64,000 nt of DNA from Idiomarina loihiensis (GTDB lineage Bacteria; Pseudomonadota; Gammaproteobacteria; Enterobacterales; Alteromonadaceae): positions 1,178,001 to 1,242,000 of the forward strand of contig NZ_CP074112.1 in NCBI RefSeq assembly GCF_024584785.1. Direction: 5' to 3'. The position numbers and the translations under genes were made by a program. Within the stretch, counting starts at the first letter, position 1, and every line of letters starts with the position of its first letter. Of this stretch, positions 33,687-56,231 are shown in pieces. The notes beneath the pieces are model-generated. The model was not told the DNA's origin. It saw nothing but the letters and a program-made list of their open reading frames with translations, and ran no database searches.

Positions 33687-33785
33687 ACTTAACGCCCACA
33701 TTAACAGGCAAAAAATAGTTGGGTAAAATTGGCGACGCAGGAGCAAAACCAACTGTTTTTTGTCCTGTTGAATTGTTTGTTATAT
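33687..33785. repeat. attC site (99 bp)
   Basis: Cores ACTTAAC (33687-33693) and GTTATAT (33779-33785). The arms CAACAGGAC and AAAACAGTTGG are AT-rich with TTAACAGGCAAAAAATAGTTGG opposite. It ends the 81-residue membrane-protein cassette. Confidence 0.8.
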
Positions 33786-34025: not shown

Positions 34026-34052
34026 TTAATTTAAAACACCATACTCTAGGTA

Positions 34053-36671: not shown

Positions 36672-38177
36672 TCAGGAGGTCACGAACTGCTCTCGAAGCC
36701 GTTTCGATTCAAAATACTCCTCAGCCGCAATTGTTGTTCTGAAATCTACATCCACACCACCAATTTGGTGCACAGCATGACGAATTCTAGCCAACTCAAC
36801 ATTGAAGAATTCTTTACGTAAATTGACGGCATTAACTCGATGCTGGCTAAATTCGCGATGTAAAGCGGTTTCTAATGCTGGGGCATCATCGGCGAATATA
36901 ATCGCATGCACATCAAAGGAAAACGGAACACTCGCATCGCCAAGCTCTCGAACCCTATCCATTGGATCTAAGCGTCTGGTCATTCCGATTTTATAAACAT
37001 TCTCCCCAAATGAGCCAACATTACTGATCACGTAAACGTGTCCACGACGGGTTTGCTCTGCGAGGCTTTTTACACGTTGCTCCTTGGCCTCTGCTTCGGC
37101 TAATTGTTGTTCCAAGGCTGCAATTTTTGCTTCCGCAAGTGCCCGCTCTTCTTGTGACAATCCGGTCAATTCCTGTCGAGCCTTTTCAAGCAACTCACGA
37201 TACAGTTTTTCTTCCCTTTCTGCGGCAGCCAAAGCTTCACGATACTCTCGTTCTGCCTTTGCTTCTTCACGCATTTGCTCGCGGATTAGACGCTGTTCTT
37301 CGAGTTCATCTTTCTTCTTAAGCGAATATTCGTATTGAATACGGCATTCCTGAAACTTTAATTCAACATAATCGTTATTAAAGCCACATCGTTTAGATGC
37401 TACTGATTTTTCAAGGTCATTGGCGAGTTTCTCTATTTGTGACAGGGTTCGCTCGAAGGTAGCAGGGCTTACTTTACCTATCAACATATCGCATTCTGTA
37501 TTGAACGCTTTCAGTAATAACTTTATTTGACCATCAATGATGCTCTTATCAATCGACACTACGCCAGAGTCTGTCAATTTCCCTTCGATTCTGATGGCTT
37601 GTTTATCCTTAATCAATTGCTTCTGTTGCTCGCGCACTAGTTTAATCTCAGCGGCATAACGTTCACCAGTCTGAAAAAGGTACTCAGGCATCTCAAAGTG
37701 TCCAAAGTCAACAAACTCCTCAATCCGACTGTAGAGATCAACCTTAGACATTACCTCGTGCAACTCTGACTCTTTCTCTAGTCGTTTCTCTTGCAGGCTT
37801 GTTATTTCGGTTTTTATATTTGTTTGATCGAGGATAAGCTTTTCGATAGCTTGTTCTAAGTCTTGTTCGCGATGTCTAAGCTCTTGGAGCGCTTTGGTCT
37901 CACGATCAACTGCTGTAAGTTCATATTGTGCGTTGCTTAATTTATCTTTTACTACGTTGACTTCACTCAGCAACTTGTCGAGCTCAAGTTCCTTTTGCCG
38001 GATACTTGTAGTGTGCTCTTTTAATACCTCTTCGAGCCGTTGTCTACGTTCTTCATATTCAGCGACTGCGTTTTTCAGGTTGCCAAATGATTCAATCTTG
38101 TTATCTACGCGACGAGAGAGCGATCGATAGATAAAGATTACCGCTATCGCATTAAGCAAAATCAACAAAACTTCCAT
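36672..38177 (-). CDS. membrane-anchored DUF4041 + GIY-YIG nuclease, SNIPE-like
   Basis: 501 residues. An N-terminal membrane helix (about 2-19, VLLILLNAIAVIFIY) is followed by coiled coil (about 25-150), a DUF4041-type helical region (about 165-300), a second Glu/Arg-rich coil (about 295-370), and a C-terminal GIY-YIG nuclease of the T5orf172 type: HVYVI at 380-384, VYKIGMTRR at 394-402, ALETALHREF with the metal-binding Glu near 436. This domain order matches the SNIPE anti-phage protein, thought to cut phage DNA as it enters at the membrane. The start follows the small coiled-coil gene by 3 bp. Antiviral role is inferred from architecture and location. Confidence 0.85.
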   Translation of the reverse strand: MEVLLILLNAIAVIFIYRSLSRRVDNKIESFGNLKNAVAEYEERRQRLEEVLKEHTTSIRQKELELDKLLSEVNVVKDKLSNAQYELTAVDRETKALQELRHREQDLEQAIEKLILDQTNIKTEITSLQEKRLEKESELHEVMSKVDLYSRIEEFVDFGHFEMPEYLFQTGERYAAEIKLVREQQKQLIKDKQAIRIEGKLTDSGVVSIDKSIIDGQIKLLLKAFNTECDMLIGKVSPATFERTLSQIEKLANDLEKSVASKRCGFNNDYVELKFQECRIQYEYSLKKKDELEEQRLIREQMREEAKAEREYREALAAAEREEKLYRELLEKARQELTGLSQEERALAEAKIAALEQQLAEAEAKEQRVKSLAEQTRRGHVYVISNVGSFGENVYKIGMTRRLDPMDRVRELGDASVPFSFDVHAIIFADDAPALETALHREFSQHRVNAVNLRKEFFNVELARIRHAVHQIGGVDVDFRTTIAAEEYFESKRLREQFVTS

Positions 38178-38180
38178 GTC

Positions 38181-38561
38181 TTACCTCATATAATTTTCAA
38201 TAAATTTAAGCTTGAGTTTAGAGCGCTCGGCTTGACGCCGCTCCATTAAAATTTTTGCGTTGACCTGTTCCTTTTTAATTTTTTCAATTCTCGCCTTCGC
38301 TTTCATCTGCTCCTGCATTTCAGCTCTTTTACTTGCGGCCTCCCGTTGAGCGGCGTGCTCCTTTTGCCGTCTTGCCAATTCAGCTCGAGCCTGTTTTTCG
38401 TGTTTTTGCTGCTCTCGCAAATATTGAGCTTGCTGACGTTTTTCTTCACGCTCCCAAGCCTTAATTTGTTGTTGATGCTCGCGATTCGCTTTTTTCGACG
38501 CCTTATCGATAGCTTTAATAACTTTTATTACACCACCTAACCCACTGCTTCTTCTGGCCAT
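38181..38561 (-). CDS. small basic coiled-coil protein upstream of the SNIPE-like gene
   Basis: 126 residues from ATG 38561 (MARRSSGLGGVIKVIKAIDKASKK); the longer frame to 38624 adds 21 unlikely residues. Almost entirely Lys/Arg/Glu/Gln-rich coiled coil. It ends 3 bp before the GIY-YIG nuclease start, so the two are probably translated together. It may be a partner or DNA-binding accessory. No named family recognised. Confidence 0.65.
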   Translation of the reverse strand: MARRSSGLGGVIKVIKAIDKASKKANREHQQQIKAWEREEKRQQAQYLREQQKHEKQARAELARRQKEHAAQREAASKRAEMQEQMKAKARIEKIKKEQVNAKILMERRQAERSKLKLKFIENYMR

Positions 38562-38664
38562 AACCGTTCCATTTAGCTGAGTATAAAACGTGCCACTTTC
38601 TTCAACTTTTGACGCATACAGCAAAGCAGCTTTATGCGTTTTTATAGAGTTTTACAATCGTTTG

Positions 38665-40275
38665 TCACACTGGCGGGAGATTCAGCTCTCTTAGATATTG
38701 GTTATGTTTGTCTGACGCCTCGGCGATGCGCTTTTCTATCTCAGCTAATTGTTTATGTACAGCGGCCAGATCGATCTCCGGCTCCGGCTTGGCGGTGCTG
38801 ACATAGCGGGAGATATTGAGGTTATATTCATTCTTCTCAATTTCCGCCATGCTCACCCGGCGAGCGTAACGTTCTTCTTCCTTGCGGTATTGATAAGTCT
38901 CTACGATCTTGTCGATGTGATCAGGTAAAAGCAGGTTCTGGCGTTTACCTTTCTCGAAGTTGTCTTCTGCGCTTGCGTTTATAAAGAGCACATCATCCGA
39001 CTTCTTGCACTTTTTTAATACCAGAATACACACCGGGATACCGGTGGAGAAAAACAGATTGGCCGGCAGGCCGATCACGGTGTCAATATGGCCGTCCTTG
39101 AGCAACTTGGTACGAATCCGGCTTTCAACACCACCACGGAACAACACGCCGTGGGGCAGAATAATGGCCATAGTGCCCTCATCACCGAGGAAGTGAAAAC
39201 CGTGCAGCAGGAAGGCAAAATCCGCTGCAGACTTGGGCGCGAGGCCGTAGTTTTTGAAGCGAAAGTCCTCGCCAAGCGCCTCGCTCGGCTGCCAGCGGTA
39301 GCTGAATGGAGGGTTGGCTACTATCGCATCACACTGTAACTTTCTGGCCGGATTCATCTCGTTGAGTAAATCCCAGTCATTGGTCAGCGAATCGCCGTGA
39401 TGGATCTCAAACTCACTGTCCTTAACACCATGCAGCAGCATATTCATCCGCGCTAGGTTATAAGTAGTAATATTATTTTCCTGCCCGTAGATTTTACCAA
39501 TACCATGCGGGCCCATTTGGTTTCGGACGTTCAGGAGTAATGAACCTGAGCCGCAGGCAAAGTCCAGTACACTGGTGAGCTTTTTCTTTTTCCCTGAGGC
39601 GGGATCCTGGCTGTCCAACGTGACGATGCGTGAGAGAATAGTCGAAACGCTTTGTGGGGTGTAGAACTCCCCAGCCTTCTTGCCGGAACCGGCGGCAAAC
39701 TGACCGATCAGGTATTCATAAGCGTCACCCAGAATGTCGCTATCGGTGGAGAATTGTGCAATGCCCTCGGCGATCTTGGTGATGATGGTGCAAAGCTTAT
39801 CATTACGTGCCTTGGGAGTTTTACCCAACTTTTCCGAGTTCAGATTGATCTCGGAAAAGAGCCCCTGAAAGGTGCTGGCAAAGGATTCATTCTCAATGTA
39901 ACTGAAGCCGCTCTCCAGTGTTTGCAACAGCTCTGCGTCTTGGGTGCGGGCTCGTTCGTAGATACTACTCCACAGGTAGTCAGGGTGAACCACATAGTGC
40001 ACCTTACGGCGCATCTGCTTTTCAAAAGCAGGCACATCTCCAGCATTATCTGTATACCAGATTGCCAGCGGAGCCCGACGGTCGCCCTGAACAAGCTTGG
40101 GATAATCCGCCCCCAATTCCTTCGCCGCAGCAGCCTCGTAGTTGTCGGAGAGGTAGCGCAGAAACAGGAACGACAACATATAGTCGCGGAAGTCGTCGGC
40201 ATTCATCGCACCGCGAAGCTCGTCGGCAATCGCCCAGAGGGTCTTGCCCAGTTGGCCCAGTTGTTCTTTAGTCAT
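38665..40275 (-). CDS. hsdM: HsdM, type I restriction-modification methyltransferase subunit
   Basis: 536 residues. The N-terminal HsdM domain (LGKTLWAIADELRGAMNADDFRDYMLSFLFLRYLSD) precedes the N6-adenine methyltransferase core with VLDFACGSGSLLLNV (SAM motif I, about residue 237) and NPPF (motif IV, about 317). Closest in style to type IC enzymes such as EcoR124I. AAGGAAAG precedes the start. It is the last gene of the operon, 45 bp after the AlbA_2 gene, an unusual place for the protective methylase. Confidence 0.96.
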   Translation of the reverse strand: MTKEQLGQLGKTLWAIADELRGAMNADDFRDYMLSFLFLRYLSDNYEAAAAKELGADYPKLVQGDRRAPLAIWYTDNAGDVPAFEKQMRRKVHYVVHPDYLWSSIYERARTQDAELLQTLESGFSYIENESFASTFQGLFSEINLNSEKLGKTPKARNDKLCTIITKIAEGIAQFSTDSDILGDAYEYLIGQFAAGSGKKAGEFYTPQSVSTILSRIVTLDSQDPASGKKKKLTSVLDFACGSGSLLLNVRNQMGPHGIGKIYGQENNITTYNLARMNMLLHGVKDSEFEIHHGDSLTNDWDLLNEMNPARKLQCDAIVANPPFSYRWQPSEALGEDFRFKNYGLAPKSAADFAFLLHGFHFLGDEGTMAIILPHGVLFRGGVESRIRTKLLKDGHIDTVIGLPANLFFSTGIPVCILVLKKCKKSDDVLFINASAEDNFEKGKRQNLLLPDHIDKIVETYQYRKEEERYARRVSMAEIEKNEYNLNISRYVSTAKPEPEIDLAAVHKQLAEIEKRIAEASDKHNQYLRELNLPPV

Positions 40276-40320
40276 GCTCTTTCCTTAAAATTATCTACCG
40301 AGGATTCCTCGGCAGTTGAT

Positions 40321-41865
40321 TCATTCTTTTTGTGTTTTTAACAAGGTTTGGCCTTTCTTTGTCAATCGGTATTTCTGAAGACGGCTCCGCGGTTTGTCGG
40401 GGATGGTCATTTCTACTAGCCCCTGGCCAATCGCTGTTTGCTGATAATGTTCCCGGAAATGCTTTTCATCTTTCAGACCCAAGGCTTCCATTAGCTCTGC
40501 ACGTCCCATCTCGCCCTGTAGCACCTCAAGCAGTCGACCAACTTCGGGGGTGACTTCGGGGGTGACTTCGGGGTGACTTCGGGGGACTTCGGGATCATCT
40601 TCCTCAAAGAACCCCTCATGCACCAGTAAACGAATCAAAAACGAACTACGCTCTTCGTTCGTTTCAAAACTCGGCAGCGGCGAGCCGTTGGCTTGCATCA
40701 CCCGCAGAATCTTGGGAATACCGGTGGAACGACCTTCGGTGAGATCCAGCTCTTTCAGAAACTCGCCAATGCGGCGGTTGCGATAGCGACGGCTTACCGC
40801 GCGACCTGCCTGAAGGTCTTCCATTTTAATCGAGCGATCCGGGCCGGGGAAGCTTAATACTATCAACTCCTGCGGAGTAATACGCACTTCAATTGGCTCG
40901 CGAATCTCGTAAGAGCGATGGTACACCGCATTCACTACTGCTTCTTCTATGGCCGCCAGCGGGTAGTTCCAGAAACGCTCTGCTTGGGGGCGATCCGGGT
41001 GCTTGATAACGGTTTCTTTCAGGTAGTTACGGGCAATGTAGTCCACCGCATCGCGGGTAATGCGCCCCAGCGGGCCACGAAACTCTTTTTCCTCGAAGCG
41101 GTTACCGCCCGGGCCATCGGGGAAATACACCACGTCAATCTGGGTCGCCGGAAAAAACCGCTCCGGATGCTCGTTGAAGAATAGCAGCCCGACATTCTTG
41201 GGAAATGCCATCTCTGCCGGACCCCCCACCACATTCATGCGGCGGCCTAGCGCCTCGACATCCAGATCGGCCGCTTCGCCCGCCAGCTCACTGCCAATTT
41301 CCTGCAGAAATTCGCGAATTAGATGGGGCGATAAATCGGTAAGACTGGCGCTCTGCTGATAGCGATCATCGAAGGGCACGGTTGCGGCCAGCGACAACAG
41401 CTCGTGCTCATCTGCCCCCTTGGCACGCACCGTGCTGGTGTGCTTACGCAGATAAAACGCCCAATCAGCCTTTTTATCACCCAGACTAGTGCGCGCTTTA
41501 TATGGCCGTGTCTCTCCTCCAGGTACCCAGAGTACCAGAATCAGCTTACCCTGAACTTCATAGGTCGCGGTAAGCGGGTGGTAAGCTGGTTGAATTGCCG
41601 CATTACCAAGATTCAGCAGTTCTTTTTGTATGCGGTCAATCTGCTCTGGTTGCAAACCTGCAGGCGGTAAGACTGGTTGCCCATTTTGTTCTGCGACACC
41701 CACCACCACATAGCCTCCACCCAGATTGTGAAAATCATTAGCAAAAGCGCAGATGCTATGCAGCACCGCCTCTGGGTTCCAGCCCGCCTTATATTCCACC
41801 CGCTCGCTTTCGATGGTTCGCTGGTGAAGCAGGGAATCGATGTTGATGGGAAGTTTCGGCGTCAC
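40321..41865 (-). CDS. AlbA_2-domain ATP-binding protein (RloF-like)
   Basis: 514 residues, GTG start overlapping the prrC stop as GTGA. ESERVEYKAGWNPEAVLHSICAFANDFHNLGGGYVVVGV (about 18-56) is the AlbA_2/divergent AAA-4 signature. The middle holds a GHKL-like ATP-binding region (AIEEAVVNAVYHRSYE), and the C-terminus has a winged helix after a VTPEVTPEV repeat. Such proteins often accompany type I R-M genes. Their function is not settled; regulation of the locus is one possibility. Confidence 0.85.
   Translation of the reverse strand: MTPKLPINIDSLLHQRTIESERVEYKAGWNPEAVLHSICAFANDFHNLGGGYVVVGVAEQNGQPVLPPAGLQPEQIDRIQKELLNLGNAAIQPAYHPLTATYEVQGKLILVLWVPGGETRPYKARTSLGDKKADWAFYLRKHTSTVRAKGADEHELLSLAATVPFDDRYQQSASLTDLSPHLIREFLQEIGSELAGEAADLDVEALGRRMNVVGGPAEMAFPKNVGLLFFNEHPERFFPATQIDVVYFPDGPGGNRFEEKEFRGPLGRITRDAVDYIARNYLKETVIKHPDRPQAERFWNYPLAAIEEAVVNAVYHRSYEIREPIEVRITPQELIVLSFPGPDRSIKMEDLQAGRAVSRRYRNRRIGEFLKELDLTEGRSTGIPKILRVMQANGSPLPSFETNEERSSFLIRLLVHEGFFEEDDPEVPRSHPEVTPEVTPEVGRLLEVLQGEMGRAELMEALGLKDEKHFREHYQQTAIGQGLVEMTIPDKPRSRLQKYRLTKKGQTLLKTQKE
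40549..40599. repeat. tandem 12-bp repeat inside the AlbA_2 gene
   Basis: Units of ACTTCGGGGGTG (12, 12, 11 and 10 bp versions) with G runs of four to five lie where the protein reads VTPEVTPEV. Length change by slippage would shift the frame ahead of the winged-helix domain. Confidence 0.7.
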
Positions 41866-42968
41866 GACTGCATCTCCTCCATGACAGGAAACAGTTCTGG
41901 GTTAAAACGGTAGTTATTCATAAAGTCACGCAGGATCTTGCGAAAATATTCCTTGTTCTCCGGCAGCATTTCCCGTGGCTCATATAAAGAATAGTTGCCA
42001 TGGCTGAGCACATTGACCAAGCGGGCGTGCAGAATGCCTTCAGGGTCGTCACTATCTTGCTTGATGCAGGCGGAGAAATTGCGAAAACCATGGAAGCTAG
42101 CCGTTTTTTCCAGAATGTTGCGCAGAATATTGAAATGGTAAGTATAAATCTCGCCTGACTCGGCCACCTGATGCAGCTGTTTCAGCAGGGCGACATGGTG
42201 GTACCGCGGTGTCTCACCGGTATCCGCCAGTCGTAAGTGGTCGGCCTCTTTGCTCAGGAAAGCTTTGACTGCATTGCCCAGTTCATTACACATCACGTTG
42301 AAGAATAGATGGTGGTGTGTGGAGATCACGGTTTTAATTTGCCCGTTAGCATTCTTCAGCAGTTGCGCCAAGTGGCTGGCCACAGCGATGGCGTTATTGT
42401 CGTCCAGCGATGAGATCGGGTCATCGATATACAGGTACTTCACCCAGGCATAGGGTGAACCCTCCTCCTGATCCACCGCCAACTGGGCTACGGCGAGAAA
42501 AAAGCACCAGACGAAGATATTTTCCTCGCCGCGTGAGACCTTGATGGGGATGGGTGCCCCCTCGTCGTCTTGTTGCCGGAAAAAGGTGATTTCCCAGGTC
42601 TCGTAGTCGATTAGGAAGTCAAAGTCCGCATAACGGGCCAGCAGCGGGCCGATGCGGTTTTCCATCTCCAGCTCTTGCAAGCCGTCGAAGAAGTGGGAAT
42701 CACGGTTCAGGCGCAGCACCCGCTTGGCATCATGCTCCAGGTCGTTATCCCAGTAGAACAGGTCTTCGGTGAAGGCATTGAAGTAGAGAGTGTCGCGTGT
42801 TTCTTCCTCACCCTCGCTTTGCTTGCCCAGTTCTTTGAAAGCCATGGACAAGCGAGTCTTTCCTGTGCCGTTGAAGGCGAATAGAAGGACATATTTCTTC
42901 GTATCCAACCGTTCGCGCAGGTGCATCGCAAGCTCGGGGAGATTCCCGAATGTACGGTTGGGGGTCAT
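41862..42968 (-). CDS. prrC: PrrC-like anticodon nuclease
   Basis: 368 residues from ATG 42968, which overlaps the hamB stop as ATGA. Walker A FNGTGKTRLS (32-41), NAFTEDLFYWDND (64-76), SRGEENIFVW (ABC signature position, about 145) and YIDDPISSLDD (180-190) correspond closely to E. coli PrrC. The C-terminal nuclease region keeps the known triad: Arg283 and Glu287 in LRNILEKTASF and His323 in NVLSHG. PrrC is held silent by a type IC R-M complex and, when phage antirestriction disturbs that complex, cuts the anticodon loop of tRNA-Lys. Size (396 in E. coli) and linkage to hsd genes agree. Confidence 0.9.
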   Translation of the reverse strand: MTPNRTFGNLPELAMHLRERLDTKKYVLLFAFNGTGKTRLSMAFKELGKQSEGEEETRDTLYFNAFTEDLFYWDNDLEHDAKRVLRLNRDSHFFDGLQELEMENRIGPLLARYADFDFLIDYETWEITFFRQQDDEGAPIPIKVSRGEENIFVWCFFLAVAQLAVDQEEGSPYAWVKYLYIDDPISSLDDNNAIAVASHLAQLLKNANGQIKTVISTHHHLFFNVMCNELGNAVKAFLSKEADHLRLADTGETPRYHHVALLKQLHQVAESGEIYTYHFNILRNILEKTASFHGFRNFSACIKQDSDDPEGILHARLVNVLSHGNYSLYEPREMLPENKEYFRKILRDFMNNYRFNPELFPVMEEMQS

Positions 42969-45900
42969 TCCTCCACCCCATCCATGATTTGCCACGCCTT
43001 GCGATAGACGCTCCCATCAGGACCGAGCGCATTAGACCAGTCTTGTTGTGATAATGCCGCGAGTCTCTGCCGTATCTTTGGTAAGGACTCTCCACCTTCA
43101 AGCTCCAAAGCTCGCGCTAGCGGCGTTGCCGCTCGACGGGGCACACCAAGCAAGCGTAAGGTAATAGCCTCGTCAGTGGAAACGCCATAGAAAACCTGCG
43201 AAGGCAAGTTGGCCAACCGATTGCGTTCTTCCTCCGGCAGGTCGGAAGCTGTGATCGCCATCAAGGCATTCAACCCCCAAGAAGAGGTTTGTGCGAGCTT
43301 ACCAAAAAGGTTCTGCCCGCACTTGGTCAAGGCAGTAACCTCATCTTCTCCGTCTTTACGGAAATGGCGGTCAGCGATGGTGGTGATCTCTTCGCCATTC
43401 ACCCAGTCTTTCAGGATAAGTGCGAGTTTGTTGCCGTCAGACACTTTTCCTCCGAGAACAGTCTCCAGATTGCCTCGCAACTCAGGAACGCGCAGAAGCA
43501 CGCCCATCATGTCTTGAAGTGTTCTGTCGCCTTGACTGAATAGACGCTCACGATCCCAGGAGCTCGGCCCAATATCGCCGCGATGGGTCATCACTGTGCG
43601 GATGCTTTGCAGCGAAAACCCTGTGCTATCGACCAGCTTTAGTGGCTGCCCCGGGCCGGCAATATAAGAGACATAATTCCGAATACCTCCCAGCAACTGA
43701 CTGGCAATTCGACTGTTCGATGTTCGGAGCTTTTCAAAGCCCAGCGTTCCTCGCAAGACTTGTTCAATCTGGTCGGCAAAGTTTGCTGGCGCGCCCAACT
43801 GTCGATAGGTGTGCACGAGGTATTGAAGAAAACTTGACCACTCTGGGTGACGATAAACGATCATACCTAGGTCGGAAAGCTCATCAGCAGCTGCTTGTGC
43901 AAGCTTTATCAACGCAGAGTTCAAATCTCCGGTGACGCGACCAATAAACTCTCGACGTTGCGCAACTTCAACTTCGCTTTTTGCTACTAGTGCCACTACA
44001 CCTAGCTGCCCTTGCGAGACTCGGCCCGCCCGACCCGCTATATTCCAGAAATCCTCGGGCGGCATTGGGACTGAGCTGCGTCCCTGAGGGTAGTGAGTCG
44101 ATGCCATTACCACACCACTAACAGGAAAGTTAACGCCCTGAGCAATGGTTGTCGTCGCCGCGAGGACATCAAGCCGTCCTTTCTCAAACAGCCATTCCAT
44201 CAGCATGCGTATTTCTTCAGGCAACCCGCCGTGATGTACTCCCACACCATAGGAAAGCAGGTCCACCAAAGGAAACTGTGCACCTAGTTCAGCAGCAACA
44301 TACTTCTGAACAAACCGAACATCCTCAGACAGGTTAGGTAGCCGATCTGATTTGATCTTCTCGGCTAGTGACCACACAAAGTCTGGTCGGCTGTGCATGG
44401 CAATTACGGGACCACGCACCTGAAGTTTGCGTGCCGTGATCGCAGCCAAGGTGCCGACCTCTCGCGACTTCGAGAGCGTCGCAGCAAGCGCATCCTCTTT
44501 ACCGAGCGAGAAGGTATCATCCAAGTCGATGGTATTACGAGAGGTATGGACTATCTGGAAGTCCAGTCGATAGTTGCGACTACGGCCATTAAGGGCACCA
44601 TCATCCACCGGACTAACGACACCAATGGCCCGATCATTGGGCTGCCAGTCTACCCCGAGGCTGATATCTTCCGCATTCTGCCCACCCAGCCAGCGGGCAA
44701 CCTCTCGGGCATTCTGGATGAAGGGCGTTAATAGCAGGAACTGCGCCTCTCGGCATTCACGGTTGATTGTTGCCAATAGCAGTTCCAGCCGCAGGCCCCG
44801 TTCACCCTCCTGAATAGTGTGTGCTTCATCGACCACCACCAGCGACAAGGGGCGGCCAATTCTCTCTTCCCAACCCTGGCGTAGCATCAGATCAAATTTC
44901 TCTGGGGTGGCCACCAGAATGCGGAACTGTGTCTCGTCGTGGGGCTCCTTCAGCATGTCTGCTTCAACGCCGTCGATTTCCATGGCCGGGCTGACTCGTT
45001 CAATCTGTAGCCCCAAAGGCTCGAAATCTCGGCGCAACTGTCGCGTCACCTGATTGACCAAGGCGCGAGTAGGTGCCAGATAAACCACCCAGCCTTTACG
45101 GTCCTCGAATTGGTTAAGTGCCTGCAACATACGGAACTGGGCTATCAATGTCTTGCCGCTGGAAGTGGGTAAGCTGACCACCACCGCCCTGCGGCTGGAC
45201 CCCAAAAGGCCCTGCTCGGCGAGAGTCCGGCGCTGCGGTGGCAGCACATCGAACAAAGCGCGATCCCCCCGACCACGATTGACTAATTCGCGCACGAACT
45301 CGGTAACACGGGAATTTACCGCGCGCGTGACCGTCCACAGGGCATTGTCCGCCATTTGCTGAGCGGCGCGCGCCAGCAGCCGCGTCAGAGGCCCCAATTC
45401 GATCAATTGCGCGGTATCGCAGGCTTCGATAGCTCGGTCGAAATGAGAATCAAGCACTGGCTGGATCTGGTGGCTGCCGTCCACCACGCCATCGGTGATG
45501 TAATGGGCCAAGACATCCGCCGCTTTTGCCAGATGGTAAATTGCGATCAGTTCCAGTGCTGATCGTTTTGCGTGCAAAGGCTCAATAGCGTGGAGATATT
45601 CCCGTTCAAAGGTTTGTTGGGCGCTGCGCAGTGAGGCAACGCGCTCCAGAACGGCATCGCGGTCAGACCAGCCCCTTTTGCGTATCAGCCGCAGCCAGAC
45701 ATCCGTAAGGGTGGCCCGACAGCGCTCTCCCCAATCGGCGGCATCCAGCGGCAAATCGGGCCAATGTTGCGACTCATCCAAACTGCGTAACCATCTTGCG
45801 GCATCCGCACCGCGATCACCCAGAACCGCCAGTACCGAGGCCCGCAACAAACTAGTGCCCGCATCCATGGGATTGGTGGGCAGAGGCAGCATCCGCAGGA

Positions 45901-46138
45901 GTCGGAAGGCATCTTCGGCAGACTGACGCAAAAGTGTGCGTTGCTCTGGGTCGTCGGCGAGCCGATCCACCTCCAAGTCCAGCACGGCAATTTCAAGAGC
46001 GGCAGCCACTTCGCGCAAGGCCTCCTCATCGACATCTGTCACCTCCCGCCCCATCTCGCGGTAGAACTGCAAGCGGTCGGCTTCTCGCAACGCCAAGCGC
46101 CGTTTATCTGCCATCGTATCCAGCAACCAATGACTCAT
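42965..46138 (-). CDS. hamB: HamB-like SF2 helicase (Hachiman)
   Basis: 1057 residues from ATG 46138, which overlaps the hamA stop as ATGA. The longer open frame to 46213 is rejected for that reason. Walker A PTSSGKT (324-330), VVVDEAHTIQEG (DEAH 437-440), LLLTPF (motif III), VAATTTIAQGVNFP and NIAGRAGR (motifs V and VI) define a Ski2-like superfamily 2 helicase with a long helical N-terminus of about 300 residues. Pairing with a DUF1837 protein identifies it as HamB/AbpB type, which scans DNA and controls the nuclease. Confidence 0.86.
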   Translation of the reverse strand: MSHWLLDTMADKRRLALREADRLQFYREMGREVTDVDEEALREVAAALEIAVLDLEVDRLADDPEQRTLLRQSAEDAFRLLRMLPLPTNPMDAGTSLLRASVLAVLGDRGADAARWLRSLDESQHWPDLPLDAADWGERCRATLTDVWLRLIRKRGWSDRDAVLERVASLRSAQQTFEREYLHAIEPLHAKRSALELIAIYHLAKAADVLAHYITDGVVDGSHQIQPVLDSHFDRAIEACDTAQLIELGPLTRLLARAAQQMADNALWTVTRAVNSRVTEFVRELVNRGRGDRALFDVLPPQRRTLAEQGLLGSSRRAVVVSLPTSSGKTLIAQFRMLQALNQFEDRKGWVVYLAPTRALVNQVTRQLRRDFEPLGLQIERVSPAMEIDGVEADMLKEPHDETQFRILVATPEKFDLMLRQGWEERIGRPLSLVVVDEAHTIQEGERGLRLELLLATINRECREAQFLLLTPFIQNAREVARWLGGQNAEDISLGVDWQPNDRAIGVVSPVDDGALNGRSRNYRLDFQIVHTSRNTIDLDDTFSLGKEDALAATLSKSREVGTLAAITARKLQVRGPVIAMHSRPDFVWSLAEKIKSDRLPNLSEDVRFVQKYVAAELGAQFPLVDLLSYGVGVHHGGLPEEIRMLMEWLFEKGRLDVLAATTTIAQGVNFPVSGVVMASTHYPQGRSSVPMPPEDFWNIAGRAGRVSQGQLGVVALVAKSEVEVAQRREFIGRVTGDLNSALIKLAQAAADELSDLGMIVYRHPEWSSFLQYLVHTYRQLGAPANFADQIEQVLRGTLGFEKLRTSNSRIASQLLGGIRNYVSYIAGPGQPLKLVDSTGFSLQSIRTVMTHRGDIGPSSWDRERLFSQGDRTLQDMMGVLLRVPELRGNLETVLGGKVSDGNKLALILKDWVNGEEITTIADRHFRKDGEDEVTALTKCGQNLFGKLAQTSSWGLNALMAITASDLPEEERNRLANLPSQVFYGVSTDEAITLRLLGVPRRAATPLARALELEGGESLPKIRQRLAALSQQDWSNALGPDGSVYRKAWQIMDGVEE

Positions 46139-46947
46139 GCTGCGCCTCCTTGGCCGATGGCTTGTGGAAGTTGGGCAATAGGCCAGGGCAGATATAGTGC
46201 AATAAGACAGCAACGGGTTGGAGCAGTCAGGCTGCTCGCCAACTTACCACCACGCACCTTCAAGTCGGCTTCACGAGGTTCTTGGTCGCGAACCAGAATG
46301 CCGAACAGCGCTAGGTCGCGTCGCCCGGAATTGAGGTAGCGGGTGCATGCTGCTCTAAAGGATGATTCAAATTCGGTGCCCTGGACCCGAGGCAGCAGCC
46401 ACCTGAGTAACTGATGGATCGTTCCGAGATTAGTCGCCAAATTGTCGATCTGATGGCCCAAGCCGCCACTTCGACCGCTCATCACTTGCGGTGGCCACTT
46501 GGCTTCCGACGAACATTTAACTTCACCGAGAGCCAGACGATGGGAGCCTCCATCGCGCTGAAAGCCGACGATATCCGCGCCCGGCAAAGAGGCAAAGGGG
46601 TTGCGCTTGTCGCGCTCATTGTTCCACGGAAGTTCCACATCGTGATGCACCTCCAGAACCGCTTCGGCCAGTGCCTCGCCCACTGCCCAGTCACGAGTTT
46701 CCGGAACTTCGGCGGCAAGCACCTCTTCCAGTGTATCCTGCCCCATGCCGGTGAGGCTAAGCCCTCGGAGGTGCTCATGCAGCGCTTCACCGCCCTCTGT
46801 ATCATGCAGACGAGCGGCCACCGGACCCTGCATAAACGCCGTCAGCTCGGCGCCATCATTGGCGCATTCGCCCTGCCAAACCACGCAACCCTGGGTTGAG
46901 TTGTAGGCGGTTTTAGACGGAAATGACAAGGGCGTCTCTTGGCTCAT
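46135..46947 (-). CDS. hamA: HamA-like DUF1837 nuclease (Hachiman)
   Basis: 270 residues. The core has GEALAEAVLE (90-99), PGADIVGF with Asp125, and LGEVKCS with Glu142 and Lys144, a PD-(D/E)xK nuclease site as in DUF1837 proteins HamA and AbpA. The start overlaps the hsdS stop (ATGA) and its own stop overlaps hamB (ATGA). In Hachiman systems HamA is held inactive by HamB until DNA damage or phage replication structures appear, then degrades DNA. Confidence 0.84.
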   Translation of the reverse strand: MSQETPLSFPSKTAYNSTQGCVVWQGECANDGAELTAFMQGPVAARLHDTEGGEALHEHLRGLSLTGMGQDTLEEVLAAEVPETRDWAVGEALAEAVLEVHHDVELPWNNERDKRNPFASLPGADIVGFQRDGGSHRLALGEVKCSSEAKWPPQVMSGRSGGLGHQIDNLATNLGTIHQLLRWLLPRVQGTEFESSFRAACTRYLNSGRRDLALFGILVRDQEPREADLKVRGGKLASSLTAPTRCCLIALYLPWPIAQLPQAIGQGGAA

Positions 46948-48257
46948 ACGCCAACCGCCTCCCGGCTGGGGAAAAGCTTTTGCATCAAGCCTTTCTTGTG
47001 GGTCTTGAGGGCGTCGAGTTTCTCCGTGTGCGTGGCGATCAGTGCGCCGAGGGACGAGAGGCAGTCAGCGATTTTTTGTTGTTCTTCCTTCTTTGCGGGC
47101 AACAGGATTGGCAGCTTCTTTAGGTCATCCAAACCAATTCGCTTTCTTGTTGATCCGGTAGCAGCTTTCTCAACTTTCGAACGAAAGTTAGGCGAATTAA
47201 TCACCAGATAAACGAAGTACTTATGATTTGAATTCTCATCAACAACCAAGCGAATTCCATCAGAGCACATGACATATCGGTCATGAATATCTGGAATTAG
47301 ACAAGCGCGGCCTACAGGATCGCCCATCTTAGACAAGATAATTTCACCGGAATATATATTGTTGCTTAGCAGCTCATCAGCCTTTTCTTTCGACGTGAAT
47401 ATCTTGTAGTCGTTAAAAAACTCACCATCTCCAATATTCTGGAGCTGAATTACTCGAATACCTTCTGGAACAAAATCTGAGGATTTGAGATTAGACCCAA
47501 ATGGTCCGCCAATAAAACTCCACTTGATTTTCTTATCAGTGGTATCAATTAGCTGCTTCTTCTCCCACTCCCCCGCATCACGAAATTCGGGGAAGCGCAG
47601 GCGGGGGACGGTTTCGCCTTCGCGGGGGAAGAGTTGCTGCATCAGCCCTTTTTTATGGTCCTTGAGAGCGTCGATCTTGTCCGCCTGGGCGGCGATAAGT
47701 GCATCGAGGGACGAGAGGCAGTCGGCGATTTTTTGTTGCTCTGTCTGTGCGGGAAACGCGATTGGGAGGCTTTTAATAATTTCAGCATTGAGATTCAGGA
47801 CCCCGCTACCAGCAGCGTTATCCAAAAAGTATGATTGGCTAGCTGGGGAAAAAATGAGGTAATAGAGATACTCTCTTTCTACTGACTCTTCAATTTCGGT
47901 TATCGCAATCCATCCATCATGAATACATGATTTTATCTTCATCAAATAGGGACGACCAAAACTCATGGAGTTAGATAAGATAAGATCGTCTGGGTGAACC
48001 TCCCTTGTTTTACTGAGCGCCTCTACTCTAACCTTTTCCTGGGTTTTAGTTACGTACTTATCGTCTTTGTTTACGTCACCAATTTTTAGCCAATTTAGGC
48101 CACTATTATCTTTTGTTATAAATCCATCAATGGGACGAGGCGAACCACCACGCACAACTGTAGAGATGTCGCCTAGATTACAATTATCCCACCCCCCTGT
48201 ATCCCGAAACTCAGGAAACCGCAACCGGGGCACCAATGCTTGTTTCTCATCCATCAC
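46944..48257 (-). CDS. hsdS: HsdS, type I R-M specificity subunit
   Basis: 437 residues in two halves. Each half starts PRLRFPEFRD-G-W and ends EQQKIADCLSSL-ALIA...LF, separating two target recognition domains (about 25-165 and 230-380) that differ from each other and would read the two parts of a bipartite site. The start is GTG at 48257 (GTGA overlap with the preceding stop) or the ATG three bases later. The near-identical half-boundaries can recombine and switch specificity. Confidence 0.94.
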   Translation of the reverse strand: MMDEKQALVPRLRFPEFRDTGGWDNCNLGDISTVVRGGSPRPIDGFITKDNSGLNWLKIGDVNKDDKYVTKTQEKVRVEALSKTREVHPDDLILSNSMSFGRPYLMKIKSCIHDGWIAITEIEESVEREYLYYLIFSPASQSYFLDNAAGSGVLNLNAEIIKSLPIAFPAQTEQQKIADCLSSLDALIAAQADKIDALKDHKKGLMQQLFPREGETVPRLRFPEFRDAGEWEKKQLIDTTDKKIKWSFIGGPFGSNLKSSDFVPEGIRVIQLQNIGDGEFFNDYKIFTSKEKADELLSNNIYSGEIILSKMGDPVGRACLIPDIHDRYVMCSDGIRLVVDENSNHKYFVYLVINSPNFRSKVEKAATGSTRKRIGLDDLKKLPILLPAKKEEQQKIADCLSSLGALIATHTEKLDALKTHKKGLMQKLFPSREAVGV

Positions 48258-48523
48258 TCTTCCAGCCCATCAGGATTTTTAAGTGCTTTTTTTTCATCTG
48301 ACGCCAGGCGTCGTTCAACCTTTTTCACATCTTCCGCGGGTGGCAGGCTTTCCGGACGAATGCCCTGGCTTAGCAAAGTCTGGTGCACTGCTTCGTTATT
48401 AGTAACATGCTCCTGCGAGATTTGATGCTCTTGGCTCATGGCCTGCTCACGGGCATTGTAGATGGTGATTTCGGTGGCAAAGTCTTTGGCCTTCACTAAA
48501 ACACGAGCCAGATCATTTTTCAT
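48254..48523 (-). CDS. DinD C-terminal-domain protein, stand-alone
   Basis: 89 residues. ARVLVKAKDFATEITIYN, QEHQISQEHVTNNEAVHQTLL and IRPESLPPAEDVKKVERRL match the C-terminal part of DNA-damage-inducible protein D. The large N-terminal BRO-type domain of DinD (about 180 residues) is missing, and hsdR ends 18 bp upstream. It has its own AAGGAGAAG ribosome binding site and a clean overlap with hsdS, so it is translated and not just debris. E. coli DinD inhibits RecA filaments; whether this fragment does is unknown. Confidence 0.78.
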   Translation of the reverse strand: MKNDLARVLVKAKDFATEITIYNAREQAMSQEHQISQEHVTNNEAVHQTLLSQGIRPESLPPAEDVKKVERRLASDEKKALKNPDGLEE

Positions 48524-48541
48524 TGCTCACTTCTCCTTGTG

Positions 48542-51500
48542 TTATTCATACGCTGCCAACCCCGATATCTCACGCCCGCTGGCATGTTTTTTCAAAAACG
48601 GCACCAGCTCTTCCATCAGCGCCAACTCCGCTTGGCTACGCGTCTTCCAGCCCAGATTCAACGGTTCGAATAGGTCACTTAATTGCTCGCCGTCGAAGAT
48701 CATGCGGTCCAGAATGCCTTCCACGAAGCCTTGCAGGGCATCGCGGTCCAGCCCGTGGCGTTTGGCCAGAGCGGTGATTTCGCTGTGGGCTTTCTGTGCC
48801 TTGAATGCCTGGTAGCCGCGTTTGATGTCCTGCTCTTTCAGCCCTTCGCCCGCTTGAAGGGTGTTGATGTAGTCAATGATATCCTCACGCTCTTCCATCA
48901 GGTTGCTGCTGGCGCTGAGCATATTCACCAACTGTTCGCGGCTTACAGTTTGTTTGCCGGGCTTTTCCTGACTGAAGCGGGCGGCTAGGCCCATGATGTA
49001 GTCATAATCGATCAGTGCCGAGGAGAAGAGCACAAATTCAAAATCCAGTTGTTCTATGGCTTCCTGATCTGGTGAAGCTTGCTCGCCAGTTTTGCCCTGC
49101 TGTTCCTTGAGGCGCTGTGCGGTCTCCAGATAGGCGCCGCGCAGGGAGCGCAGATCGTCTTCGGGCAGTACGCTGTTGATGCGTGCTTTTTGCTCTTCGT
49201 CCAGGTCGGTGTACTGATCGAGCTGGGTCTTGAGGCGCTGGACTTCCTTGAAGCGGTTGACGAACTCGATGCGAGCAGTATCGCCCTTGAGGTTGTAAAC
49301 GCCCTTGGGTTCGGCCACCACATCTTTTTCGGTAAGAAAGTGTTCGATAGCGGCCACGGCCTGCTCGTATTTTTCGATGACCGTAGGGGCCGGGTCCACC
49401 AGCCAGATTTCGCGGGAGCGGTTAATGTCCTCGCCAGAGAAGAGCGCGATGGCGTCGTCCACCGCCTGCTCTTGATCGCGAAAGTCAAGGATGTTGCCGT
49501 AGGGCTTAGTGTCATTAAGCACGCGGTTGGTACGAGAGAAGGCCTGAATCAGACCGTGGTGCTTGAGGTTCTTGTCCACGTAGAGGGTGTTGAGGTACTT
49601 GGCGTCGAAGCCAGTGAGCAGCATATCTACCACGATGGTGATGTCGATCTTGTTTTTGTGCGGCAGGTCGCTGTTAGGGTATTGCTGATCCTTGATGCGC
49701 TGCTGAACATCTTGGTAGTAGCGGTCGAACTCGCTCACCGTATGACTGGTGCCGTACTGCGTGTTGTAGTCGGCAATGATTTCTTGCAGCGCGGCTTTCT
49801 TCTGCTCCGGCTCCTGCTGGTTGTCGGCCATTTCCTGCGGCAGGTCTTCCTGCAGCTGTCTCACATCCTTGTCGCCATTGGCTGGTGGTGAAAAGACACA
49901 GGCAAGGTTGAGCGGCACGAAGTCCGGATCTTGCGCTTGCATTTCAGACTGGATCTCTTTGAACAGCCGGTAATAGGCAATCGCATCATTGATGGAAGCA
50001 GTGGCCAGCAGGGCGTTGAAACGGCGCTGGTTAGTGGCGGCTTCATGCTTGCTGAGAATGGCATCCACCACTGCGCGCTGAGCCAGAGCCTGATCAGGTC
50101 TGGCTTTTGCATGCGTTGTCTCGGGCTTGTAATAGTCGATATGAAAGCGCAGCACATTGCGATCATCAATGGCGTGGGTGATGGTGTAGGCGTGCAGCTG
50201 CTTCTCAAAAATATCCCGGGTGGTGCGGTAGCTGCCCACAGTGCCATCGATCTGCTTGTAGCTGGCGTTGTCATCAAAAATGGGCGTGCCGGTAAAACCG
50301 AACAATTGCGCTTTTGGGAAAAAGCCCTTGATGGCCTGGTGGTTGTCGCCAAACTGAGAGCGGTGGCATTCATCAAAGATGATAGCGATGCGCTTGTCGC
50401 GCAGCGGAGCTAGGCGTTCCTTATAGGTCTGCCTACCCTTGTCTTTGTGCCGTTGGGCTTTTTTGCTTGTTTCATCCAGCGCCAGACCCAGCTTTTGAAT
50501 GGTAGTGACAATCACCTTGTCGGCATAGTCCTCGGAGAGCAGGCGGCGCACCAGGGTTTCGGTGTTGGTATTTTCCTCCACGCAGCCTTCCTGGAAGCGG
50601 TTGAATTCCTCGCGGGTCTGGCGGTCGAGGTCCTTGCGGTCTACCACAAACAGGCATTTTTCAATATCCGGGTTATCCTTGAGCAGGGTGGAGGCCTTGA
50701 ATGAGGTGAGTGTTTTGCCACTACCGGTCGTGTGCCAGATGTAGCCGTTACCTCGATTCTGGTGGATACAATCAACAATCGCCTTGACCGCATAGATTTG
50801 GTACGGGCGCATGATCATCAGCTTCTGCTCACTGGCCACCAGCACCATGTAGCGGCTGATCATCCGGCCCAGGGTACATTTGGCCAGGAAGGCGTCGGCG
50901 AAGTCATCCAGGTGGGTTATCTTGCGGTTGTCTTCATCGGCCCACTGGTAAATGGGCAAAAAACGCTCGTCGGCGTTGAAGGCGAAGTGCTGGCTCTGGT
51001 TGTTAGCGAAGTACCAGGTGTGGTCACGGTTGCTGACGATAAACAGCTGCATGAAGCACAGCAGCGTGTTGGCGTAGCCGTTACCGGGCTCGTTGCGGTA
51101 CTCGACGATTTGTTCCATCGCCCGGCGCGGGTTGATGCCCAGCGTCTTCAGCTCGATTTGCACCATCGGCAAGCCGTTGATGAGCAGAATCACATCGTAC
51201 CGGTGGTGGCTATTGTCGGTGTTGATACGCAGCTGGCTGATGACTTCGAAGTCGTTTTTGCACCAGTCCTTGAGGTTGACCAGCATGTAGTGAAGCGGGG
51301 TGCCGTCCTCCCGCTGGAAATAACCGTATTCGCGCAGGGTCTTGGCGGCCTGGAAGGCATCGGCGTTGATAATCTCGTCGCGCAGGCGGGCAAATTCGGC
51401 ATCGGTCAGGCGGACGCGGTTCAGTGTCTCGAATTTGTCGCGGAAGTTACGCTCCAGTGTGACCTTGTCGCGAATATCTGAGCGGTAGGTGTATTTGAGC

Positions 51501-51553
51501 TCTTCGAGTTTATTGATCAGCTTTTGCTCGATCTGACTTTCTTTCAAGGACAT
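48542..51553 (-). CDS. hsdR: HsdR, type I restriction subunit (type IC-like)
   Basis: 1003 residues. Nuclease site: Asp120 in RYDVILLINGLP, Glu134 and Lys136 in VQIELKT. Translocase: TTGSGKT at 275-281, DECH at 394-397, later VVDMLLTGFDAKYLNTLYVDK and IQAFSRTNRV. Length and the C-terminal helical region fit EcoR124I-type HsdR, the class that PrrC associates with. It is the first gene of the eight-gene operon, so restriction would be made before the methylase gene at the far end. Confidence 0.96.
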   Translation of the reverse strand: MSLKESQIEQKLINKLEELKYTYRSDIRDKVTLERNFRDKFETLNRVRLTDAEFARLRDEIINADAFQAAKTLREYGYFQREDGTPLHYMLVNLKDWCKNDFEVISQLRINTDNSHHRYDVILLINGLPMVQIELKTLGINPRRAMEQIVEYRNEPGNGYANTLLCFMQLFIVSNRDHTWYFANNQSQHFAFNADERFLPIYQWADEDNRKITHLDDFADAFLAKCTLGRMISRYMVLVASEQKLMIMRPYQIYAVKAIVDCIHQNRGNGYIWHTTGSGKTLTSFKASTLLKDNPDIEKCLFVVDRKDLDRQTREEFNRFQEGCVEENTNTETLVRRLLSEDYADKVIVTTIQKLGLALDETSKKAQRHKDKGRQTYKERLAPLRDKRIAIIFDECHRSQFGDNHQAIKGFFPKAQLFGFTGTPIFDDNASYKQIDGTVGSYRTTRDIFEKQLHAYTITHAIDDRNVLRFHIDYYKPETTHAKARPDQALAQRAVVDAILSKHEAATNQRRFNALLATASINDAIAYYRLFKEIQSEMQAQDPDFVPLNLACVFSPPANGDKDVRQLQEDLPQEMADNQQEPEQKKAALQEIIADYNTQYGTSHTVSEFDRYYQDVQQRIKDQQYPNSDLPHKNKIDITIVVDMLLTGFDAKYLNTLYVDKNLKHHGLIQAFSRTNRVLNDTKPYGNILDFRDQEQAVDDAIALFSGEDINRSREIWLVDPAPTVIEKYEQAVAAIEHFLTEKDVVAEPKGVYNLKGDTARIEFVNRFKEVQRLKTQLDQYTDLDEEQKARINSVLPEDDLRSLRGAYLETAQRLKEQQGKTGEQASPDQEAIEQLDFEFVLFSSALIDYDYIMGLAARFSQEKPGKQTVSREQLVNMLSASSNLMEEREDIIDYINTLQAGEGLKEQDIKRGYQAFKAQKAHSEITALAKRHGLDRDALQGFVEGILDRMIFDGEQLSDLFEPLNLGWKTRSQAELALMEELVPFLKKHASGREISGLAAYE

Positions 51554-52241: not shown

Positions 52242-52358
52242 TGCTAACGCTGCTGTAACCGGACCGAATTACGGAGCGGTTGTTTGTGCGACAGTGAGCA
52301 AAGCGGATGCACAAACTGCCGCGTAGTAATTTGGGTCCGGTTTACAGCCTTGTTATAA
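52242..52358. repeat. attC site (117 bp)
   Basis: Cores TGCTAAC (52242-52248) and GTTATAA (52352-52358) with long arms: GTAACCGGACC against GGTCCGGTTTAC, and GCGGTTGTTTGTGC against GCACAAACTGCCGC. A strong, nearly continuous stem; one of the clearest attC sites here. Confidence 0.9.
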
Positions 52359-52736
52359 GCTGACATTTTTACGCACATAGTTCCATGCAGTAACGGCACA
52401 CGCTGCACCGAATAGACCATAAAGACCCAGAAAAGTGGCTGATTGAAAACTGAACTCGGTGCCAGCCACGCCAAACATTAAAACCGGTGTGAGCGCACCA
52501 AATATAAAACCAACCGCTAAGTAAATTACAAAATACGCATATTCCGGAAGTTGATATTTCTGACGAATCTTAATCAATGGGTACGCCAACACAATGCACC
52601 AGAACACCGCTATAGGAAATGCAATAAAGCCAAATATTGTTGCTGCACCGCCATACGCAGGCAGGCTAACCAATACAAGTAGAACAGCCCCCACAAAGGC
52701 GGCTTGAATACTTGATGTTATTACATGCTTCCACAT
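52353..52736 (-). CDS. array B cassette: four-helix membrane protein
   Basis: 127 residues with four hydrophobic segments (about 10-28, 32-55, 66-88 and 98-120), small-residue rich. No family recognised. Complete cassette between attC 52242-52358 and 52746-52844. Confidence 0.6.
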   Translation of the reverse strand: MWKHVITSSIQAAFVGAVLLVLVSLPAYGGAATIFGFIAFPIAVFWCIVLAYPLIKIRQKYQLPEYAYFVIYLAVGFIFGALTPVLMFGVAGTEFSFQSATFLGLYGLFGAACAVTAWNYVRKNVSL

Positions 52737-52745
52737 TGCATTGCC

Positions 52746-52844
52746 TTATAACGCTTAGCTAATTGGCTGCCGCAGCATAGCGTAGGCAGTCCAGTGGAGG
52801 CCACGCTGTTTGTGGCCGGAACGAAATTAAGCAACTTGTTATAT
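52746..52844. repeat. attC site (99 bp), near-copy of 31698-31796
   Basis: Cores TTATAAC (52746-52752) and GTTATAT (52838-52844). Between the cores it differs from the attC at 31698-31796 by only a few bases. It ends the cassette of the 52861 gene. Confidence 0.88.
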
Positions 52845-52860
52845 GCCAAACACACCCCGC

Positions 52861-53154
52861 CTAGTAGTACCAAACAAAAAAAGCAGCGCATAAAAACATG
52901 ATTATGTATGGTGCAAGACAAATACACTTCAACGACTTCTTTATTGCTGGTTTAGGCCACAAATAGTAGTAAATAAATACCGGGAGAAAAAGGCTGCTGG
53001 CATAGGTCGAAATTGCAATGATATAGCCACCCTCGTATGCAAAGTAACCACCAAAGTAAAGCCAATAAATACCAAATAGGGACACCGCACTCAACACGGC
53101 TAATAGCGTAGAATACCCAATTAAAACCCAGCTTTTTGGTGCTAGCGCGTCCAT
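52861..53154 (-). CDS. array B cassette: membrane protein, about 97 residues
   Basis: The start at ATG 53154 (MDALAPKSWVLIGY) is preferred. The open frame reaches 53193, but that would begin in the repeat-R core site. Three hydrophobic segments (about 8-30, 38-58 and 76-97) and the aromatic C-terminus FFVWYY. Unknown function. First cassette of array B, abutting repeat R copy B. Confidence 0.5.
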   Translation of the reverse strand: MDALAPKSWVLIGYSTLLAVLSAVSLFGIYWLYFGGYFAYEGGYIIAISTYASSLFLPVFIYYYLWPKPAIKKSLKCICLAPYIIMFLCAAFFVWYY

Positions 53155-53183
53155 TCTATGTTTTAACCTCTGTCCTTTCTGAG

Positions 53184-53544
53184 CATATAACATTTGTATA
53201 TTGTGCGTGCGCGTTTAACAACTCGTCCAATTGATGGTTTTCAGCTCTTAACTTACTGAGCAAGTAGGCATTCCTAACTTGAAAGAATCCGAGTTAGCAA
53301 AGGCAATTTGAGCATGCTCAGTTACGCTCTACCGAGCGCACAATATCCAACTTTTATTTTTGTTATATCATTGACAGTAAACGACTTAAACACACAACAC
53401 AATAACAAAACACGCAATATCGCCGAAGTGAATGTGCCGTACATTGCTGGCGACACCATCACTTACTAATAACGCGACGGCTAGTCAATAGTTGCAGTAA
53501 CCTGAAAGTCAAAAGGTCCGGTGTTCGCTCAAAGCGGACGTTAC
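53184..53544. repeat. long direct repeat R, copy B, with attC-like hairpin
   Basis: 361 bp matching 34053-34412 in the same orientation, offset 19131 bp. The attC-like part is 53185-53368 (cores ATATAAC and GTTATAT). The 34-codon frame of copy A has ATA instead of ATG here. The two copies diverge only in the last 30 bases, where this copy has the GGTCCG...CGGACGTTAC palindrome. The bases from 53545 to 53695 show no gene. Confidence 0.85.
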
Positions 53545-53695
53545 ATTCCCAACAACCTAAAGCAAAAGCACGCATCCATAAAAATCCCATGCCCCATCTC
53601 AAATAATAACTTTTGAATGAATTATGACCTAAATTTGCAATCATGACAAAAAACAATTAACTTTGAATATACAATACTAGCACGGAGTTAACAAA

Positions 53696-55075: not shown

Positions 55076-55132
55076 TTGAGGGCCTTTCCTTTCACTGTAA
55101 TCACTGGCGAAATACCGATATACGATAGTTAA

Positions 55133-56126: not shown

Positions 56127-56231
56127 CTGTCATCCCCTGTTACTTATTCTAAGTAATATCCACTAATCTTTTCTCCACGAATGCCATTGTGAAGCTTAGG
56201 GATGACGGTTTGTGTCGCACTTGCATGATTA

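Follow-up and report, generated by a model that had tools for sequence, protein, structure and literature searches.

Why does a pair of genes resembling the anti-phage system Hachiman lie between the genes of a type I restriction-modification (RM) system, and does its activity depend on restriction? The locus that raises this question is part of a 64,000-nucleotide stretch of Idiomarina loihiensis DNA (hereafter the window; contig NZ_CP074112.1, positions 1,178,001 to 1,242,000, from a 2.9-Mb genome in a single contig). Eight consecutive open reading frames (ORFs) on the minus strand encode hsdR, a DinD remnant, hsdS, a hamA-like nuclease, a hamB-like helicase, prrC, an AlbA_2 gene and hsdM, an order that a first-pass annotation had read from the sequence alone and that our ORF and family calls confirm. 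With a probability of roughly 0.6, we read the locus as a modular type IC-like RM operon, hsdR-slot-hsdS-slot-hsdM, in which two suicide-type modules, a divergent Hachiman pair and PrrC, follow hsdS and HamAB is complementary to HsdRMS.

A remotely Hachiman-like pair

By far the best family for both proteins is the PADLOC candidate system PDC-M23, whose two profiles are matched by adjacent genes (scores in Table 1); the HamB-like protein reaches only 209 bits against PADLOC HamB vs 1373 bits against PDC-M23B. The HamA-like protein has no Pfam match at E<0.1, hence none to the HamA family PF08878, which also has no match in the window's own genome. It has no PADLOC HamA match at 1e-3, and its profile reaches HamA of the Protein Data Bank (PDB) only at E 0.25. 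As the sequence match to the HamA/DUF1837 family failed, we call the pair Hachiman-like and not a member of PF08878.

The predicted structures relate both proteins to Hachiman. For the HamB-like protein, the top three Foldseek matches are HamB (best E 4e-30), and the alignment is full length. Foldseek alone gave no match with E below 0.001 for the HamA-like protein, and its predicted HamA fold emerged only in a second look with VIA. In an alignment of 80 loci and the window (omitting L009, L013, L052, L069 and L084 from the 84 hamA matches), D125, E142 and K144 of the D-GExK motif are invariant in 81 sequences, while G141 is found in at least 90%. This motif of HamA is named in PMC12799240. 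The catalytic motifs checked in the defence genes of the operon look intact.

Like Hachiman HamAB of E. coli (PDB 8vx9, 8vxa, 8vxy), the window pair is a two-gene nuclease-helicase, predicted to cover both folds nearly full length and carrying the D-GExK motif. However, the sequences are only 14-19% identical, and the genomic setting differs: hsd genes flank 21 of 51 PDC-M23 loci on both sides, but 0 of 21 classical ones. The earlier naming of the genes as hamA and hamB therefore agrees with the predicted folds of both proteins but not with the HamA sequence families, and PDC-M23A/B describe the pair better; the Hachiman identity is right only as a remote, structure-level relation.

Recurrence inside type I operons

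Relatives of hamA were searched in genome contigs of 84,980 species, and the best 80 of 167 relatives were kept. Adding the window and the loci of sampled genomes, and dropping L009, which duplicates L033, and the weak L013, gave 85 scored loci. Same-strand hsd genes within 10 kb of hamB are found on both sides in 27 of these, on one side in 15 and on neither in 43. Where at least 3.5 kb of flank is available on each side of hamB (51 loci), the corresponding numbers are 21, 5 and 25; the 21 consist of 8 loci of the order hsdR..hamAB..hsdM, 12 of the order hsdM..hamAB..hsdR and one other. In 26 of 84 loci hsdS is directly upstream of hamA, in 20 of 84 with an exact 4-base overlap, and prrC adjoins hamAB in four loci besides that of the window.

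The 27 two-sided loci are found in all three large groups of the HamB tree (alignment of 45 of 75 rows plus the window; the tree omits L009, L012, L013 and fragments under 900 aa). By the names in the tree they belong to nine phyla: Pseudomonadota, Verrucomicrobiota, Myxococcota, Nitrospirota, Schekmaniibacteriota, Bacillota, Thermodesulfobacteriota, Gemmatimonadota and Cyanobacteriota, the hsd genes being distant in the cyanobacterial locus L050.

The control consisted of the 21 loci of classical Hachiman (PF08878) in two samples, of 369 and 398 genomes, which overlap in part; our model recognised hamB in 18. None of the 21 has hsd genes on both sides (0 of 16 under the same flank rule), and some hsd gene is nearby in 4 of 21. 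Treating related loci as independent, the difference between 21/51 and 0/21 has a Fisher p of 1.7e-4, or 3.1e-4 without the window. For PDC-M23 in the two genome samples, excluding the own genome and the weak match G047, it is 2/5 vs 0/21 (p 0.03, loci again taken as independent). The recurrence of this Hachiman type in type I operons suggests that the defences may work together.

PDC-M23A had no match on plasmids, and one scan with a single protein found no relative in viral contigs. Among eight proteins around the hsd-free hamAB of L019, L022 and L055, PADLOC gave just one ankyrin-type match, in L019.

The lineage of the window operon and its empty-site relatives

The order hsdR-(extra gene)-hsdS-hamA-hamB-prrC-hsdM is also present in Billgrantia (L014), Halomonas (L015), Methylococcus (L016) and Lautropia (L024). 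L026 and L027 have the same arrangement without prrC, and L020 has it without prrC and hsdS. The search that the first-pass annotation had proposed, for hamA-hamB placed between hsdS and prrC or hsdM elsewhere, is thereby answered repeatedly, and a one-off insertion can be rejected, as the order is identical in four other genomes and related in more.

The HamB proteins of window-type operons form one supported group of 12. Also in this group are L021, a short contig with hsdS upstream, and L019, L023 and L022, where no hsd genes were recognised (the flank of L022 is short). In L020, hamAB is whole beside a decayed RM system, with only a 431-aa fragment of hsdR, an hsdM split into two pieces and not enough space for hsdS. 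L052 is the reverse case, where a stop interrupts hamA and hsd genes are present.

By likeness to HsdR or PrrC, the same backbone was found without hamAB in E. coli (L094, L097), Prosthecochloris (L095), Hymenobacter (L096) and Methylomonas (L100). The E. coli operons, hsdR-TrlF-AlbA_2-hsdS-PrrC-hsdM on a Tn7-like element and an IncC plasmid, share the backbone, the overlaps and the position of prrC after hsdS with the window but have no hamAB, and thus offer an empty-site comparison. No E. coli genome covers 80% of the whole operon.

In the class sample, HsdR is matched at E 1e-150 in 21 of 369 genomes, including the own genome. Stretches were taken for 15 of the 20 others, and nine reach past the position of hsdS (L169, L171-L174, L176-L179; hsdS was not recognised in L171). 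None of these nine readable type IC operons has hamAB, and five have prrC.

The seven hamAB operons do not group in the HsdR tree (18 rows), where supported branches force at least four gains or losses; at least three are forced in the HsdM tree (16 rows). Therefore, one hamAB lineage has entered or left the same slot several times. The HsdR tree excludes L177 (wrong frame), L098 (far outgroup) and L154, L170 and L175 (contig ends before the slot); a one-clade test still included the last three, and its group was chosen after the trees were seen.

Operon layout and transcript

The RM set is complete, with hsdR and hsdM over curated cut-offs and two Methylase_S stretches in hsdS; the assignment to type IC is based on the EcoR124_C domain and PrrC, not on complementation tests. 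The start of hsdS is GTG, with an ATG at 48254 as a possible alternative. Halomonas salicampi (L015) has a full 281-aa DinD in the corresponding slot, and the 89-aa ORF in front of the window's hsdS shares 78% identity with its C-terminus. As this ORF matches only positions 206-287 of NF008573, we take it to be a DinD remnant.

Table 1. Features of the operon and of the run behind hsdM, with positions in the window.
Feature	Position	Strand	Evidence
hsdR, type I restriction subunit, 1003 aa, type IC-like	48542..51553	-	TIGR00348 399 bits over cut-off; PF12008 EcoR124_C, HSDR_N, SWI2_SNF2
DinD C-terminal remnant, 89 aa, 4-base overlap with hsdS	48254..48523	-	NF008573 positions 206-287, E 1.3e-20
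hsdS specificity subunit, two target-recognition domains	46944..48257	-	Methylase_S in 2 stretches; PADLOC Specificity_I
hamA-like nuclease (PDC-M23A), 270 aa, motif D125 / G141-E142-x-K144	46135..46947	-	PDC-M23A 330 bits
hamB-like Ski2/Hel308-type helicase (PDC-M23B), 1057 aa	42965..46138	-	PDC-M23B 1373 bits
prrC anticodon nuclease, 368 aa	41862..42968	-	PADLOC PrrC 468 bits; R283-E287-H323 + Walker A intact
Schlafen AlbA_2 / HATPase_c_4 / Fic-like_C protein, 514 aa	40321..41865	-	PF04326, PF13749, PF21247 over cut-off
9-bp hairpin with weak T run, possible attenuator	40295..40315	-	AlbA_2/hsdM gap; -14.8 kcal/mol, z -2.5
hsdM methyltransferase, 536 aa	38665..40275	-	TIGR00497 371 bits over cut-off; N6_Mtase, HsdM_N
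147-aa (or shorter) ORF, possible read-through	38181..38624	-	ORF list; no family over cut-off
PD-Lambda-1 defence gene (DUF4041 + T5orf172/MUG113), possible read-through	36672..38177	-	PADLOC PD-Lambda-1 530 bits; PF13250, PF13455, PF10544

The five 4-base junctions described by the first-pass annotation, from the DinD fragment through the AlbA_2 gene, are present: GTGA at DinD'/hsdS, ATGA at hsdS/hamA, hamA/hamB and hamB/prrC, and GTGA at prrC/albA. From these overlapping junctions a single transcript across the overlapping genes is likely. The DinD remnant is separated from hsdR by 18 bases, and hsdM from the AlbA_2 gene by 45 bases; the hairpin with its weak T run in the latter gap means that read-through into hsdM is not certain. 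Behind hsdM, the 147-aa ORF and the PD-Lambda-1 gene follow on the same strand, so the run may extend further than proposed, and the PD-Lambda-1 gene is perhaps one more member of it.

Operons of this family usually have four-base or comparably tight overlaps whether hamAB is present or absent, which points to an ordinary tight operon and nothing particular to Hachiman. As a sign of a special Hachiman coupling the overlaps were rejected as too general, since hsdS/prrC and prrC/hsdM overlap likewise without hamAB. An Rfam scan of 26-60 kb gave a single match, at chance level.

PrrC and the AlbA_2 gene

The gene prrC lies between hsdS and hsdM of an operon whose HsdR carries EcoR124_C, i.e., in a type IC-like setting. 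Residues R283, E287 and H323, which we take to be the EcoPrrC triad R320/E324/H356, and Walker A are invariant in 11 aligned PrrC proteins. These include the protein of L098, annotated as anticodon nuclease, from an hsdM-hsdS-prrC-hsdR operon. The search by sequence for a solved PrrC relative gave a single match at chance level. EcoprrI, with the same gene order as L098, resembles the window in that its type IC operon has PrrC next to hsdS and that the R-E-H residues are conserved, but the order in the window is hsdR-dinD'-hsdS-hamAB-prrC-albA-hsdM.

Relatives of the AlbA_2 protein recur in other type I operons; among the operons read, only the window has this gene between prrC and hsdM. In two hsdS-containing loci, ATPases of the AAA_13 family and PDC-S06 type are encoded just upstream of hamA (L025 1126-3315, L028 6721-9096), with a weak PrrC match in L025. 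They are presumably RloC-like, and a PrrC/RloC-type partner for this Hachiman type may recur.

Independent, gated or merely co-located

HamB of Hachiman is described as sensing DNA, with a preference for 3' single-strand overhangs, and as activating HamA on damage, whereupon the cell dies (PMC12278908). This published trigger, DNA damage and 3' single-stranded ends, does not need HsdRMS. AbpAB, termed a Hachiman variant, is reported to answer DNA damage and phage single-stranded-DNA-binding protein (PMC10732053). PrrC is reported to be held by the type IC enzyme and to be activated when T4 Stp inhibits that enzyme; this role as guardian is published for EcoprrI (PMC3874165, PMC12707154), and prrC in a type IC operon is traced to 1994 (PMC3874165).

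We suggest that HsdRMS would be the first line, while HamAB would patrol DNA. Breaks or 3' single strands could accumulate as phages replicate or as other nucleases widen restriction ends, and HamB would then release HamA for the destruction of DNA. PrrC would be kept in check by the HsdRMS complex and cut tRNA once the restriction enzyme is inhibited by a phage. Being co-expressed behind hsdS could keep the three systems in step and let them move as one package. Most likely, HamAB works in its own right, complementary to HsdRMS and not physically gated by it. Its independence is probable since 25 of 51 loci have no hsd genes and since hamAB is whole beside the decayed RM system of L020. Of the layered defence proposed by the first-pass annotation, the layout stands, i.e., the nuclease-helicase pair and PrrC overlap hsdS and each other in a type IC-like operon; that failed restriction sets off HamAB or PrrC here, and that the layers sense one another, is an inference.

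Several points weigh against this reading. The HamA-like protein is only 14% identical to HamA, the transcript is possibly split by the hairpin ahead of hsdM, and the nine other readable type IC operons of the class sample are all without hamAB. Many of the loci are contigs of metagenome-assembled genomes, the 80 relatives kept are the closest of the 167, and two seeds of that search are themselves embedded; in the two genome samples just 2 of 5 are. The hsd models were built from PDC-M23 loci and may favour them, although they still detected hsd near 4 of 21 controls. Finally, the hsdM..hamAB..hsdR state is as scattered on the HamB tree as random shuffling would make it (15 changes vs a shuffled mean of 14.9), and clustering is seen only for the hsdR..hamAB..hsdM state (a value as low arose in 2 of 500 shuffles), so the tie between hsd and hamAB is labile.

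It is unlikely that HamAB is instead held or licensed by HsdS or HsdM, or fires on ends made by HsdR, as a second RM guardian beside PrrC. The hsdS-hamA overlap repeated in two operon orders would fit such gating, as would the lack of two-sided hsd genes in classical Hachiman, the presence of prrC or of the AAA_13 gene of L025 and L028 beside hamAB, and a published remark listing damage by other defence systems among the phage-genome stresses, which would add to the signal that Hachiman may sense (PMC12278908). However, the structure comparison revealed no extra domain in either protein for docking to Hsd proteins. Further arguments against gating are that HamB keeps its usual architecture, that 25 loci are hsd-free and that hamAB is whole in L020. 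Unrelated defence pairs are also found in type I operons, so the slot itself may attract them. We likewise consider it doubtful that this Hachiman lineage has become an integral second step of type I restriction. Co-translated with HsdS, it would fire on DNA ends left by HsdR or on stalled complexes when restriction fails or is blocked, and PrrC would answer direct inhibition, giving ordered, mutually sensing layers of DNA cutting, DNA destruction and translation arrest.

Rather improbable, too, is a passive hotspot behind hsdS that takes up any defence gene for joint transfer and expression, restriction and HamAB being functionally unlinked. The slots of relatives indeed hold DinD, AlbA_2, TrlF, TrlF+AlbA_2, YhcG-type PDDEXK nucleases, RhuM or PrrC, the backbone has seen at least four gains or losses, and the state on the HamB tree is scattered as noted above. 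In the published TgvAB case (PMC11411939), protection is reported to be independent of HsdR activity, though tgvAB alone protects less than the whole cluster. However, classical Hachiman is never seen in the slot (0/21) despite being commoner in the phylum sample (15/398 vs 2/398 for PDC-M23) and as common in the class sample (6/369 each), so entry is not indiscriminate, and the exact 4-base coupling of hsdS and hamA in 20 of 84 loci also speaks against a mere hotspot. Independent but complementary action of HamAB remains the reading that we prefer.

Relation to published systems

Unrelated two-gene defence modules embedded in type I operons have been reported, DarTG2 in an island of enteropathogenic Escherichia coli (PMC12255303) and TgvAB in VPI-2 of Vibrio (PMC11411939); neither module is Hachiman or PrrC. 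The PDC candidates as a class came from a 'guilt-by-embedding' preprint by Payne et al. (named in PMC12988326). Our literature search, covering titles and abstract openings, found no description of Hachiman in a type I operon, though the preprint may describe PDC-M23; a search for the term PDC-M23, which did not extend to the preprint, found no paper. Less of the arrangement is new than was first supposed, as embedding of defence pairs is already published.

The locus makes an evolutionary case for repeated pairing between type I restriction and an abortive system of the DNA-damage-sensing kind. A functional pairing would show how bacteria back up restriction against escaping phages, and would give PDC-M23 a predicted mechanism, that of a Hachiman-type nuclease-helicase.

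Genomic surroundings

The RM operon lies in an 18-kb block that is apparently embedded in a chromosomal integron cassette array. On either side of the operon, at 30725-34235 and 52244-56838, small same-strand ORFs are separated from one another by palindromic attC-like sites; seven sites scoring at least 18 are on the minus strand, compared with none in each of five shuffles. The integron-integrase model gave one split match barely above cut-off and several partial ones in the own genome. Two pairs of direct repeats, each 95% identical, bracket the defence block: 361 bp at 34053-34412 and 53184-53544, and 93 bp at 31701-31793 and 52749-52841. As these repeats bracket the block, the longer pair holding attC-like sites, its deletion or exchange as a whole by recombination is possible.

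Further away, a four-gene set at 10717-17149 is Wadjet-like and barely recognised by the PADLOC models; it includes an SMC-like protein (DUF3584, 750 bits) and a weak match to JetD. Two OrfB/IS605-type transposase (TnpB-like) genes on the minus strand, at 5920-7110 and 20770-21912, are 65% identical in DNA.
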